Positions 55,380-62,509 of a stretch of 64,000 nucleotides of DNA are shown here, one piece after another. Within the stretch, counting starts at the first letter, position 1, and each line of letters begins with the position of its first letter. The notes under the pieces are model-generated. The model had not been told where the DNA came from and did not search any database. It was given only the letters and a program-made list of their open reading frames with translations. Source of the stretch: Natrinema ejinorense (GTDB lineage: Archaea > Halobacteriota > Halobacteria > Halobacteriales > Natrialbaceae); NCBI RefSeq assembly GCF_002494345.1, contig NZ_NXNI01000001.1:2418001-2482000 (forward strand), written 5' to 3'. Position numbers and translations under genes: made by a program.

Positions 55380-55572
55380 CCGATCGACTCGCGTTTCGAT
55401 CATCGACGGGACGATCGGACGGGATTCGGCTGCGAGGATGTACGGACGATTTCTCGAGCACGCAGTTCGCAAAGAAACGGCGAGTAATCACACGAGGGGA
55501 GGCGTGTGAACCATTAGCACATTATTAATCATTAGGTTTATGGTGGTGCCCCCAGTTTGTGGTGGTACGCAC

Positions 55573-56019
55573 ATGACGAAGACAGTCATCCTCGGCGTGA
55601 TCGGGTCCGACGCTCACGTCGTCGGGATTACCATCCTGGAACAGGCCCTGGAGGCAGCCGGATTCGACGTCGTCAATCTGGGGGTCCAAAGCTCCCAAGA
55701 AGAGTTCGTTGAAGCCGCATCCGCCAACGACGCCGAGGCTGTACTCGTCTCCTCGCTCTATGGCCACGCCAAACAAGACTGCGAGGGCTTCCACCAGCGG
55801 ATCGCGGACGCCGACCTCGACGTTACGACCTACATCGGCGGCAACCTCGCCGTCGGGCAGGACGACTTCGAGGAGACCCGCAAGTTCTTCCGCGAGATGG
55901 GATTCGATCGCGTCTTCGATTCGGAGACCGATCCCGAGGACGCCATCGAAGCCCTCACGGCTGATCTCGACATGCGCTCGACGGAGGGCGAACGGGAAGG
56001 CCGGACGGTGTCCGCATAA
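55573..56019 (+). CDS. mamA: Methylaspartate (glutamate) mutase, cobalamin-binding subunit
   Basis: A 148-residue B12-binding subunit, with the DxHxxG motif at D13/H15/G18 in GVIGSDAHVVGITI, and LVSSLYGHAKQD and YIGGNLAVGQ as the rest of the nucleotide-binding fold. It pairs with MamB (GlmE) to convert L-glutamate to 3-methylaspartate, as in the haloarchaeal methylaspartate cycle for acetyl-CoA assimilation. MamB and methylaspartate ammonia-lyase, which often follow, are not here. ATG 55573 is the family start. Terminator-like sequence follows. Confidence 0.88.
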   Translation: MTKTVILGVIGSDAHVVGITILEQALEAAGFDVVNLGVQSSQEEFVEAASANDAEAVLVSSLYGHAKQDCEGFHQRIADADLDVTTYIGGNLAVGQDDFEETRKFFREMGFDRVFDSETDPEDAIEALTADLDMRSTEGEREGRTVSA

Positions 56020-56627: not shown

Positions 56628-58763
56628 CTACGCGGCGAGCACCCGTTCGATCGTGGCACGGATTCGATCCGGACCGGGGCGGTAAGACTCCTCGCGGGCC
56701 GGCAGCGGAACCGGCACGTCGTAGCCCGTCACCCGCTCGATGGGTGCCTCGAGGTACCAGACGGCCTCGTCGGCGATCCGGGCCGCGATTTCGCCGGCGA
56801 ACCCACCCGTTCGGGGAGCCTCGTGGACGACGACGCAGCGACCGGTCTTGCGGACCGATTCGAGGACGGTCTCGGTGTCCATCGGACTGATCGTCCGCAG
56901 GTCGATCACCTCGATGTCGGCCTCGAGATCGGCGACTGCGTCTTCGACCTCCCGGACCATCGCTCCCCACGCGACGACGGTGGCGTCGGTCCCCTGATCG
57001 ACCAGCTGCGCCTCACCTAGCGGGACGACGGTTTCCTCGGGAACCGGCCGTCTGGCTGCCCGATACAGCACCATGGGTTCGAGGAACACGACCGGATCGG
57101 GGCTGCGGATCGCCGACCGTAACAGGCCGGCAGCGTCCCTGGCCGTCGAGGGAATCGCGACGTTGAGTCCCGGAATGTGGGCGTAGCCCGCCTCGTAGCT
57201 CTCCGAGTGGTGCTCGAGGGCCTTCACCCCGAGGCCGTAGGGAGCGCGGATCACCATCGGACACGTGATCGTCCCGCGCGACCGACTGCGGATCCGCGAG
57301 CAGTGCTGGTGGATCTGTGCGAACGCCTGGAAGCTAAAGCCGGCGAACTGGATCTCGGCTACCGGCCGATAGCCCGCCGCTGCGAGACCGACGCCGAGGC
57401 CGACGATGCCCGCCTCGGCCACCGGCGCGTCGTGGACCCGACCGGGGAAGCCCTCCAGGAGCCCCTGCGTCGCCCGGAAGACGCCGCCGTCGACGCCGAC
57501 GTCCTGGCCGTAGACGAGCACGTCGTCGTCCCGCTCGAGTTCGGCGTGTAACGTCCCCCGGATCGCCTCGACCATGTTCAGTCGGTCGGCGCTCTCGAGA
57601 TCCGCATCGGTGGCAGCGTCGGCACCGGCCCTCGTATCGGCCGTCGACGACCCGCCGTCACCGCGACGGTCCCCGCTTGCGGGAGCGACCGTCCGGCCCT
57701 CGTCCGCACGGAACGCCTCGCGCTGGCGCTCGAGATAGGGCGGTCGCTCCGCGTAGGCGGTGTCGAACATGTCCGCCGGATCGGCGTTCGCTTTCGTCTC
57801 CCGGGCCGCCTCGAGGGCATCCTCGAGGTCGGCCTCGATCTCGGCGTCGATCGATTCGACCGTCTCGTCGTCGAGGAGTCCGCGTTCCCGGAGGTACTGT
57901 TGGAATCGCAGGATCGGGTCCAGTGGTTCCCACGACGCTTCTTCCTCGGTCGTCCGATAGACGGAGGGATCGTCCGCCGTCGTGTGCATCTCCCGGCGGT
58001 AGGTCGTCGCCTCGATCAGCGTCGGGACGCCGCGACGGGCGCGCTCGCGGGCCCTCCTCGTGACCGCGTAGACGCCGAGCACGTCGTTCCCGTCTACCTG
58101 CACCGGCTCGATCCCCGCCGCGACGGCCTTCTGGGCGAGCGTCGCCGCGCGCGTCTGTTTCGACAGCGGCGTCGAAATTGCGTACTGATTGTTCTGGCAG
58201 AAGAAGATCGTTTGTGCCTCGTAGACCCCGGCCAGGTTCATCGCCTCGTACACCTCGCCCTCGCTCGTGGCACCGTCGCCGAAGTAGGTGAGCGCGACCG
58301 AATCGCTGTCGTTCATCGCCTCGGCCCAGCCGATCCCCGCGGCGTGTAGCGGCTGGGTCCCCACCGCGATCGACGGCGGCAGCATCGGGACGTCGTCGGG
58401 GGGCTCTCCCCCCTCCTCGAGGCCCATCGCGTACTCGATGATCTCCTGGGCGGAGCCGCCGCGGGCGAGCGCCGACGGATGCTCCCGGAACGCGGGCACC
58501 GTCCAATCGTCCTCGTCCAGCGCCGCGGTGCTCCCGACCTGAGCGGCCTCCTGACCCGTCGCGGGCGCAAACGTTCCCAGCTCACCCCGTCGCTGGAGCG
58601 CGATCACCCGCTGATCGAGCCGCCGCGAGCGCTTCATCGTCCGGTACCACTCGAGCAGGCGTTCGTCGTCGATATCGGGCTCGAGCGATTCGTCGACGCG
58701 GCCGTCCTGGTCGAGTATCTCGACGCGATCGATCGAGAACGTGGCGAGCTGAGAGCGTGGCAT
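56628..58763 (-). CDS. Thiamine-dependent 2-oxoacid dehydrogenase E1, alpha and beta fused
   Basis: A 711-residue single-chain E1. Residues about 30-350 are the alpha part, with the thiamine-diphosphate motif GDG (162-164) to NN (191-192) and HTTADDPSVYR. A linker rich in Gly/Asp/Ala occupies about 352-393. Residues about 395-711 are the beta part (LNMVEAIRGTLHAELERDDDVLVYGQDVG, MVIRAPYG, then VIDLRTISPMD). It decarboxylates a branched-chain or pyruvate-type 2-oxo acid for an E2. Haloarchaeal E1 is usually two genes. No E2 or E3 is nearby. ATG 58763 (MPRSQLATF) is chosen as in separate E1-alpha proteins. Confidence 0.88.
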   Translation of the reverse strand: MPRSQLATFSIDRVEILDQDGRVDESLEPDIDDERLLEWYRTMKRSRRLDQRVIALQRRGELGTFAPATGQEAAQVGSTAALDEDDWTVPAFREHPSALARGGSAQEIIEYAMGLEEGGEPPDDVPMLPPSIAVGTQPLHAAGIGWAEAMNDSDSVALTYFGDGATSEGEVYEAMNLAGVYEAQTIFFCQNNQYAISTPLSKQTRAATLAQKAVAAGIEPVQVDGNDVLGVYAVTRRARERARRGVPTLIEATTYRREMHTTADDPSVYRTTEEEASWEPLDPILRFQQYLRERGLLDDETVESIDAEIEADLEDALEAARETKANADPADMFDTAYAERPPYLERQREAFRADEGRTVAPASGDRRGDGGSSTADTRAGADAATDADLESADRLNMVEAIRGTLHAELERDDDVLVYGQDVGVDGGVFRATQGLLEGFPGRVHDAPVAEAGIVGLGVGLAAAGYRPVAEIQFAGFSFQAFAQIHQHCSRIRSRSRGTITCPMVIRAPYGLGVKALEHHSESYEAGYAHIPGLNVAIPSTARDAAGLLRSAIRSPDPVVFLEPMVLYRAARRPVPEETVVPLGEAQLVDQGTDATVVAWGAMVREVEDAVADLEADIEVIDLRTISPMDTETVLESVRKTGRCVVVHEAPRTGGFAGEIAARIADEAVWYLEAPIERVTGYDVPVPLPAREESYRPGPDRIRATIERVLAA

Positions 58764-58905
58764 ACGACCGGTACCACGGTCGCCCACTTAGTGCCCGCCT
58801 CGGCCATTGCGCGGCTCGCGTTCCGGGCCGCTGGCCAGGACGGAAAGCAGGCGCTCTCGAAACGAGTCCCAGAAAATCGGTGTGAAACCGGCTGCAGTGA
58901 CTGCG

Positions 58906-59496
58906 TTACTTCGCGCGGCCTTGGCCGCCGGTGTTGGACGGGCGGACCTTCTCCGCACCTTTGCCGCGGTTGTTGAGCCCGCGGTTTGCCTTGCCGGCGT
59001 TGGTGAGCCCGCGGAACGCGCGGTTCTGGTGGGCGTCGTCGCAGATCCAGTTGAGGTCGTCGTCGTTCTCGATCGCGGGGTGGTTCGGATCCACGAGGAT
59101 CGCTTCGAACCACTTCTGCGAGCCGTCTTCTCCGACCCAGTAGCTGTTGAGCACCCGCATGTTGGGGTACTTCCGGGAGACGCGTTCCTCACCGATGCGC
59201 TGGATGTTCTTGCGCCGCCCGATGCGGTTGACACCCTGGCGCTTCGAGCGCCGACCGGCTTTGTGTCGCTGTTTCCGGGCGGTCCCTTTCCGGACCGAGA
59301 CCCGGGTCACGATGATGCCCTGTTTGGCCTTGTAGCCGAGTTCGCGTGCCTTGTCGAGACGCGTCGGGCGATCGATCCGCTCGATCGCACCCTGGTCGCG
59401 CCACTCCTGTTTGCGCTGCCACTGCAGCTCCCCGAGCTTGCCGTCGTCGGGGTCTTTCCATGCGTCCTTGATGTGGGAATAGAAGCTTTCTGCCAT
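58906..59496 (-). CDS. rpl15e: 50S ribosomal protein L15e
   Basis: A 196-residue large-subunit protein of the archaeal/eukaryotic L15e family. Recognised by MAESFYSHIKDAWKDP, the middle RKGTARKQRHKAGRRSKRQG, and RVLNSYWVGEDGSQKWFEAILVDPNHPAIENDDDLNWIC, with a C-terminal Gly/Arg/Asn tail. Basic for a haloarchaeal protein, as expected for an RNA binder. ATG 59496 is the family start. A long GC-rich leader lies upstream. Confidence 0.97.
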   Translation of the reverse strand: MAESFYSHIKDAWKDPDDGKLGELQWQRKQEWRDQGAIERIDRPTRLDKARELGYKAKQGIIVTRVSVRKGTARKQRHKAGRRSKRQGVNRIGRRKNIQRIGEERVSRKYPNMRVLNSYWVGEDGSQKWFEAILVDPNHPAIENDDDLNWICDDAHQNRAFRGLTNAGKANRGLNNRGKGAEKVRPSNTGGQGRAK

Positions 59497-61812: not shown

Positions 61813-62509
61813 GGCGGTGTTCAGATAAGGATGAAGGATGAGGCGGTTCGTTTTCTGAGTGATCTATGCCCGAAAACGACCGCCTCAACGGTTGTTTAGA
61901 CGAGATCAACTTAGAGTTTGTTGAACGAGAAGCGACACCGCGATTGCTGATGAAGCTCAGTATTCAACTGCACCTCGCTGGACTTTCGCTTTCGAATACT
62001 GTCTCTGTTCTTGAGGTATTCGGTGTCAAACGCGCTCGGTCTACTGTTCACAATTGGGTACACAAGGCCGATCTACAGCCCGAATCTGGCCGGTGTCCGG
62101 ATCACGTTGCGGTTGACGAGACCGTGATCCGACTGAACGATGAGCAGTATTGGCTGTACGCCGCAATCGATCCAGAGACAAACGAATTGCTCCATACAAA
62201 GCTTGAACCGACAACAACGAAGGTTCTCGCTCATTCGTTTCTTACGGAACTATCCGAGAAACACAACGTCTCTGACGCCGTGTTTCTCGTTGATGGGTCG
62301 CACTCGTTACAAGATGCATGTCAGCGCCACGGCTTCGATTTCAGATACGAAAAGCATGGAAATCGAAATGCTGTTGAACGTGTCTTTAGAGAGATAAAAC
62401 GACGAACACTCTGCTTCTCAAACTGCTTCAGCAACGCCGAAGCAGAAACTGCCGACGACTGGCTCAGATCGTTCAGCTTCGCATGGAATCAGCTTATCTG
62501 AACACTACC
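61813..62509 (+). mobile_element. Complete IS6-family insertion sequence (ISH14/ISH15-like)
   Basis: A 697-base element. Its ends are 17-base inverted repeats, GGCGGTGTTCAGATAAG (left) and GGTAGTGTTCAGATAAG (right end, reverse complement), 15 of 17 identical. It is flanked by AGACGGAG at 61805-61812 and 62510-62517, an 8-base duplication as expected for IS6. It carries one transposase. Ends and duplication are intact, so insertion is recent. Confidence 0.88.
61866..62501 (+). CDS. IS6-family transposase
   Basis: A 211-residue DDE transposase. The catalytic residues are D84 (HVAVDETVI), D143 (FLVDGSH) and E171 (NAVERVFREIKRRT). An N-terminal helix-turn-helix-like region contains KRARSTVHNWVHKAD. 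The frame is intact with start and stop inside the IS ends, so it may be active. The codon use is less GC-biased than neighbouring genes, as is usual for haloarchaeal IS elements. Confidence 0.92.
   Translation: MPENDRLNGCLDEINLEFVEREATPRLLMKLSIQLHLAGLSLSNTVSVLEVFGVKRARSTVHNWVHKADLQPESGRCPDHVAVDETVIRLNDEQYWLYAAIDPETNELLHTKLEPTTTKVLAHSFLTELSEKHNVSDAVFLVDGSHSLQDACQRHGFDFRYEKHGNRNAVERVFREIKRRTLCFSNCFSNAEAETADDWLRSFSFAWNQLI

Follow-up and report, generated by a model that had tools for sequence, protein, structure and literature searches.

AceE is a single-chain E1. One report on E1 describes the E1 of Gram-negative bacteria as carrying its α- and β-like parts in one chain (PMC2663715). That report places the binding domain on the two-fold axis of E1 and assigns H128β and H271α to decarboxylation and to the acylation of the lipoyl group; the H128Qβ mutant retained its dye activity (100%), and its complex activity was 3.8% (PMC2663715). 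For haloarchaea, another publication states that pyruvate and 2-oxoglutarate are handled by ferredoxin-linked enzymes and that the substrates of haloarchaeal 2-oxoacid dehydrogenases are mostly not identified, with one paralogue tied to isoleucine (PMC8305020). A search of titles and abstract beginnings in the open-licence literature found no description of a fused E1 α-β, haloarchaeal or other, which may still be in print.

The window analyzed here, a stretch of 64,000 nt from Natrinema ejinorense, encodes on the minus strand a single-chain E1 α-β of 711 aa (56628..58763 including the stop codon), as the first-pass annotation had proposed. The frame is open over 711 codons from an ATG at 58763 and contains, according to Pfam, E1_dh (residues 41-325, 7.5e-81 for the whole protein), Transket_pyr (residues 395-568, 1.7e-39) and Transketolase_C (residues 583-701, 3.6e-34), which are the domains of an α2β2-type E1. 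Based on Pfam and residue alignment, the protein was divided into an E1-α half (residues 1-350; 57714..58763, minus strand) and an E1-β half (residues 393-711; 56631..57587, minus strand). The linker between them (residues 351-392; 57588..57713, minus strand) was delimited by an alignment of 19 relatives and by pLDDT. It had been described as a Gly/Asp/Ala linker of 40 residues and comprises 42 residues, mainly Ala, Asp, Gly and Arg. Because α and β lie in one open frame instead of separate polypeptides, the protein is filed as a variant of the α2β2-type E1 and not as a plain member. The start ATG and the following 'MPRS' are common to all 19 fused relatives. A CACTAAGT box at -30 to -23 from the ATG (58786..58793, minus strand) is shared without a change by all 19 fused genes; it is likely a core promoter element of an own, nearly leaderless transcript. 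A longer start at GTG 58787, 8 codons upstream of the ATG, was rejected: it overlaps this invariant box and the 8 added residues are unconserved.

The ThDP motif is located in the α half (GDG at residues 162-164, NN at 191-192) and is identical in all 19 fused proteins. The catalytic residues of α2β2-type E1, namely His260 in the α half as well as Glu450 and His519 in the β half, are invariant in the same set. In HMMER alignments, His260 aligns with residue 271 of the α chain, i.e. H271 of the 1w85 α chain, and His519 with index 129 of 3duf_B, which was taken as H128β with the initial Met as offset. The closest solved relatives are α and β chains of two-chain E1s, including the pyruvate dehydrogenase E1 of Geobacillus stearothermophilus and a Pyrobaculum β chain. 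The AlphaFold2 model, based on an alignment of 64 rows, reached a mean pLDDT of 84.4 and a pTM of 0.86; values below 50 were obtained for the linker core (residues 356-383), which is predicted to be disordered, and also for residues 511-521. In Foldseek searches, each half of the model matches the 1w85 chains with a TM-score by target of 0.84-0.90. By analogy with two-chain E1 enzymes, two fused chains would pair into an (αβ)2 dimer, an (α-linker-β)2 homodimer that would mimic the α2β2 heterotetramer at a fixed 1:1 ratio. The enzyme would be a ThDP-dependent decarboxylase of a 2-oxoacid, not necessarily pyruvate. It does pass the NCBIfam model for the pyruvate dehydrogenase E1 α subunit (TIGR03181; 428.3 vs. 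the cut-off of 411.35 bits), but this label is not trusted since a lone E1-α of the source genome passes the model as well; no substrate prediction is obtainable from family models. The lone E1-α gene (G000:C1 3856146-3857177; L060 5099-6226) encodes 375 aa, and no adjoining E1-β was seen. Among the matches listed, α matches of about 50% identity without a β alongside recur in many relatives.

The first-pass annotation had stated that E1 α and β are usually two genes in haloarchaea, and this holds: in an order-level sample, the present fusion was found in at least 16 of 392 genomes and a different E1 α-β fusion in at least 7 of 392 (E ≤ 1e-128). It had also proposed to compare fused and split forms among relatives. 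Within the family, a whole-protein search retrieved a complete one-frame match without stop codon in 19 of 125 genomes at 76-100% identity, and related orphan pairs are split. Of these 19 carriers, 10 belong to Natrinema; the others fall into three genera with 3, 5 and 1 carriers, Haloterrigena and Natronorubrum being two of these genera. They include Natrinema versiforme, N. salsiterrestre, N. zhouii, Natronorubrum texcoconense and Haloterrigena salina, and also a second genome of the source species (G108), whose fusion is 98% identical. All 19 fused proteins can be aligned end to end. Their linkers vary between 33 and 49 residues through frame-preserving indels around a recurring GDG core. 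For 12 pairs, dN/dS amounted to 0.06-0.17 in the α half and 0.07-0.18 in the β half, whereas most linker values fell at 0.12-0.95; one linker value was undefined, and another reached 2.8 but was based on few sites. Such a pattern is that of a working enzyme whose tether is under little constraint.

To place the gene in its genomic context, the neighborhood was compared among carriers and non-carriers. At 13 loci in 12 carrier genomes, the fused gene lies between rpl15e, the upstream neighbor encoding ribosomal protein L15e (58906..59496, minus strand; named from sequence and located in relatives), and the universal stress protein gene uspA on the other flank (Usp, PF00582; 56134..56568, minus strand; Pfam and relatives). 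The surrounding block reads LplA-RIO-...-rpl15e-E1-uspA-GlmS-APRT-ThrS, although some members were not found at some loci. Of 24 non-carrier genomes in which rpl15e was located, 20 were examined at this site, 15 of them from the same genus. In all 20 the site is empty and most of the block is present; the gap between rpl15e and uspA measures 124-382 bases in these non-carriers vs. 2338-4693 bases in carriers. The longer gaps, found in Haloterrigena and G036, hold extra genes between rpl15e and E1 that appear protease-like and ABC-transporter-like by eye. Since non-carriers keep the block without it, the fused gene is regarded as an accessory unit of its own. For the same reason, two candidate functional links were dismissed. 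The nearby gene of the lipoate-protein ligase family (PF21948; G000:C1 2482371-2483264, immediately beyond the window) is not specific, as the order LplA-RIO-L15e-UspA-GlmS-APRT-ThrS also occurs in non-carriers, and the gene order around the neighboring methylaspartate mutase S gene is the same in non-carriers. The latter gene (window 55540-56019) exceeds the cut-off of NF002612 and keeps a conserved order with uspA and the adenine phosphoribosyltransferase gene; no further methylaspartate-cycle gene was noticed beside it. The interval from rpl15e to the RIO kinase gene holds an ORF (window 61866-62501) that looks transposase-like by eye and was not found by tblastn in G108 or the other carriers.

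The origin of the fusion was traced in phylogenetic trees of 157 β and 151 α rows, from which partial sequences (< 290 or 300 aa) and identical ones had been removed; loci L001-L007, L037-L040 and L157-L161 were omitted as duplicates or unrelated. The 19 fused rows form one clade with a support of 100 in the β tree and are set off by a branch of support 100 in the α tree. In the β tree they are nested in a haloarchaeal clade of 39 rows (support 99), in which all other members are two-gene pairs. These split orphan pairs (e.g. in G042, G190, Halegenticoccus and Halorussus) are about 57-70% identical to the fused E1 per half and resemble it in having no E2 or E3 alongside, but differ in consisting of two overlapping genes in different frames. 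No adjoining E2 was found at 20 split orphan loci flanked by 3 kb or more, nor at 13 fused loci. Because the fused clade nests among two-gene pairs without a neighboring E2, the separation from E2 predates the fusion. One early-branching member of the orphan clade, G046, encodes E1α, E1β, E2 and E3 in a row together with an LplA-like gene. In a sample of 20 chosen pairs from the orphan clade plus G046, with β starts judged from candidate codons, the likely β start precedes the end of the α stop codon by 4-11 bases and is out of frame with α in all 20. As the split β gene begins inside the α end in a different frame, fusion required a frame change together with the loss of the stop codon. Going by the trees, the fusion arose once in this Natrialbaceae lineage, and it probably did so in an ancestor of a group of Natrialbaceae, where a shift of frame bridged the overlapping α stop and β start. 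In the β tree, G190 provides the sister of the fused clade (support 93), and its split α already has a Gly/Asp-rich tail ending in GGASGDGTSAGGHGE; because the α tree groups G190 with other split rows, its role as an intermediate is a hint only. In G042 and G195, the split pair also neighbors rpl15e, but with the E1 genes facing it tail to tail, so that this common neighborhood is suggestive at most. Among the matches listed for 11 carriers, with up to 18 candidates scored per genome, no split orphan pair was found in addition to the fusion.

No E2 or E3 gene is encoded next to the fused E1, as the first-pass annotation had noted; such linkage is usual, though not strictly defining, for α2β2-type E1. 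The two E2 genes of the source genome are located at 2.044 and 3.646 Mb, both more than 400 kb from the fused E1 (window 2.418-2.482 Mb), and E3-type matches (PF02852) lie at 1.369, 2.176, 3.671 and 3.712 Mb as well as on contig 2. The two E2 genes are candidates for the matching E2 that had been proposed as a search target. Both E2 proteins comprise lipoyl, subunit-binding (PF02817) and acyltransferase domains. One is encoded in an E1α-E1β-E2 locus after an apparent LipA gene, the other in the vicinity of an AcoX-like gene and an E1 pair similar, by eye, to acetoin dehydrogenase. The E2 near the acetoin-dehydrogenase-like genes (L058 3400-5217; G000:C1 near 2.044 Mb) has an additional C-terminal OsmC domain, so that lipoyl, subunit-binding, acyltransferase and OsmC domains share a single frame of 606 aa. 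Downstream of the operonic E2, contractile tail- or injection-like genes were observed, including a tail-sheath-like protein by eye (L059 7041-11571; G000:C1 about 3.647-3.652 Mb). The best E3 gene lies about 24 kb beyond these tail-like genes; relatives including G022 and G005 have E3 directly after E2.

We consider it somewhat probable that the fused protein, a complete two-subunit-type E1 that was fused once and should be homodimeric, feeds a shared remote E2/E3 core. The acyl group would then be passed to the lipoyl domain of this core, for which the remote E1-E2 operon codes; this transfer is the most conjectural step. The first-pass annotation had suggested that the enzyme could serve a remote complex, and this stands in part. 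An E2 is encoded elsewhere in all 19 fusion carriers, in G015, G021 and G025 as a sole E2 adjoining the operonic E1 pair, and the complete cluster of G046 also speaks for a shared core. The co-occurrence of fused E1 and E2 cannot discriminate, however, because E2 is nearly universal in the family (122 of 125 genomes); outside the family, all 18 genomes checked as split-form carriers have one (including G046, which is not an orphan). The absence of complex genes nearby counts against a shared core, and so does the C-terminal end of E1-β, which we take to lie at the E2-docking site in the Bacillus enzyme. The last residue of E1-β is aromatic (F/Y/W/H) in 73 of 85 E2-adjacent rows and in 24 of 34 rows outside the clade with no or unknown E2, but the split orphan rows show it in only 5 of 19 cases and the fusions of the window type in none of 19. 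Fusion itself does not explain this loss, given that an aromatic end persists in 6 of 7 members of a second haloarchaeal clade of fusions.

These same observations, i.e. the lack of E2 at both split and fused orphan loci and the missing aromatic end in 14 of 19 split and all fused rows, would fit an orphan E1 that works without E2 in split or fused form. It would be a ThDP decarboxylase that passes its product to another acceptor, in an aldehyde or acyloin reaction or by electron transfer to a redox protein, and would be released from the constraint of E2 docking. We regard this as rather doubtful. The lipoyl-step residues are invariant, from which it can be argued that lipoyl transfer is still under selection, and the loss of the aromatic end alone does not equal the loss of E2, because 12 of the 85 E2-adjacent rows lack it too. 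These include the bacterial fusions L101 and L103; it is also absent from a third bacterial fusion with adjoining E2, L104, which is not counted in the 85 because its sequence is partial. Still more unlikely is a stepwise exit from the complex, in which E2 and E3 were lost from the locus, the docking end of β changed and the subunits fused, leaving a free-standing, transketolase-like 2-oxoacid decarboxylase without a lipoyl E2. Independent of the preferred shared remote core, as it concerns history only and fits either mechanism, the fused gene might be cargo at the rpl15e-uspA site that spread by recombination. Its patchy occurrence (present in 10 of 29 Natrinema genomes), the empty site in all 20 non-carriers examined and the other genes in the same interval of some carriers point in this direction. 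This scenario is tentative as well, since the site is the same in all 12 carrier genomes checked and the gene tree mostly separates the genera, as expected under inheritance with repeated loss. It is extremely improbable that the linker junction is an artefact of sequencing or assembly, the case that had been named as refuting, or that the gene is a decaying pseudogene: the same open junction is found in 18 other genomes including G108, all linker indels are in frame and both halves are under purifying selection.

Other E1 α-β fusions exist. The second haloarchaeal clade (L169-L175; G297, G122, G267, G259, G286, G415 and G356) is separate from the window type in both trees and includes one split pair, G016. 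Like the window fusion, it is haloarchaeal and has the same domain order in one frame; unlike it, it often has E2 or E3 alongside, and the two are 42-45% identical. Within the 19 kb fetched, E2 was found alongside in 5 of 7 cases (L170, L172, L173, L174, L175) and E3 in 3 of 7 (L171, L172, L173). A plasmid record of Natronococcus sp. AD-5 contains one member of this clade. Among 79 named loci, 3 are bacterial one-frame fusions, all with adjoining E2 (L101, L103, L104). The β tree requires 4 changes of the 'fused' label, at least 3 of them by strong branches, and by this measure E1 α-β fusion arose more than once.

Given these other fusions, nothing here is categorically new. The fusion is real and conserved, yet it modifies a familiar design; its lineage-specific orphan form adds a further variant, with ordinary chemistry and an unusual gene architecture. 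As a single chain, the orphan E1 offers an easily purified entry to the substrate question of haloarchaeal dehydrogenases and a natural test of an E1 working apart from E2. It also illustrates that the two-chain E1 turned into a one-chain layout, as in transketolase, more than once in evolution.

Compared with known systems, the fused E1 is closest to the Geobacillus stearothermophilus pyruvate dehydrogenase E1 (1w85, 3duf): both halves match its α and β chains lengthwise, and the ThDP motif and catalytic His and Glu residues are shared. It differs in being a single chain, in having no adjoining E2 or E3 gene and in a β part without C-terminal aromatic residue. With single-chain E1s (SucA/OdhA, DHTKD1) and transketolase, it shares the domain order and the one-chain layout. 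In Foldseek, OdhA, SucA-type, DHTKD1 and transketolase chains span both halves, but with an identity of 14-16% and a poor overall superposition (rmsd of 10-13 Å). An AceE/SucA-type single-chain E1 was rejected on this identity and because the matches of SucA-type NCBIfam models are confined to a portion of the α half and score far below cut-off. By sequence comparison, the window protein is an α-β fusion and not a descendant of SucA/OdhA-type chains.
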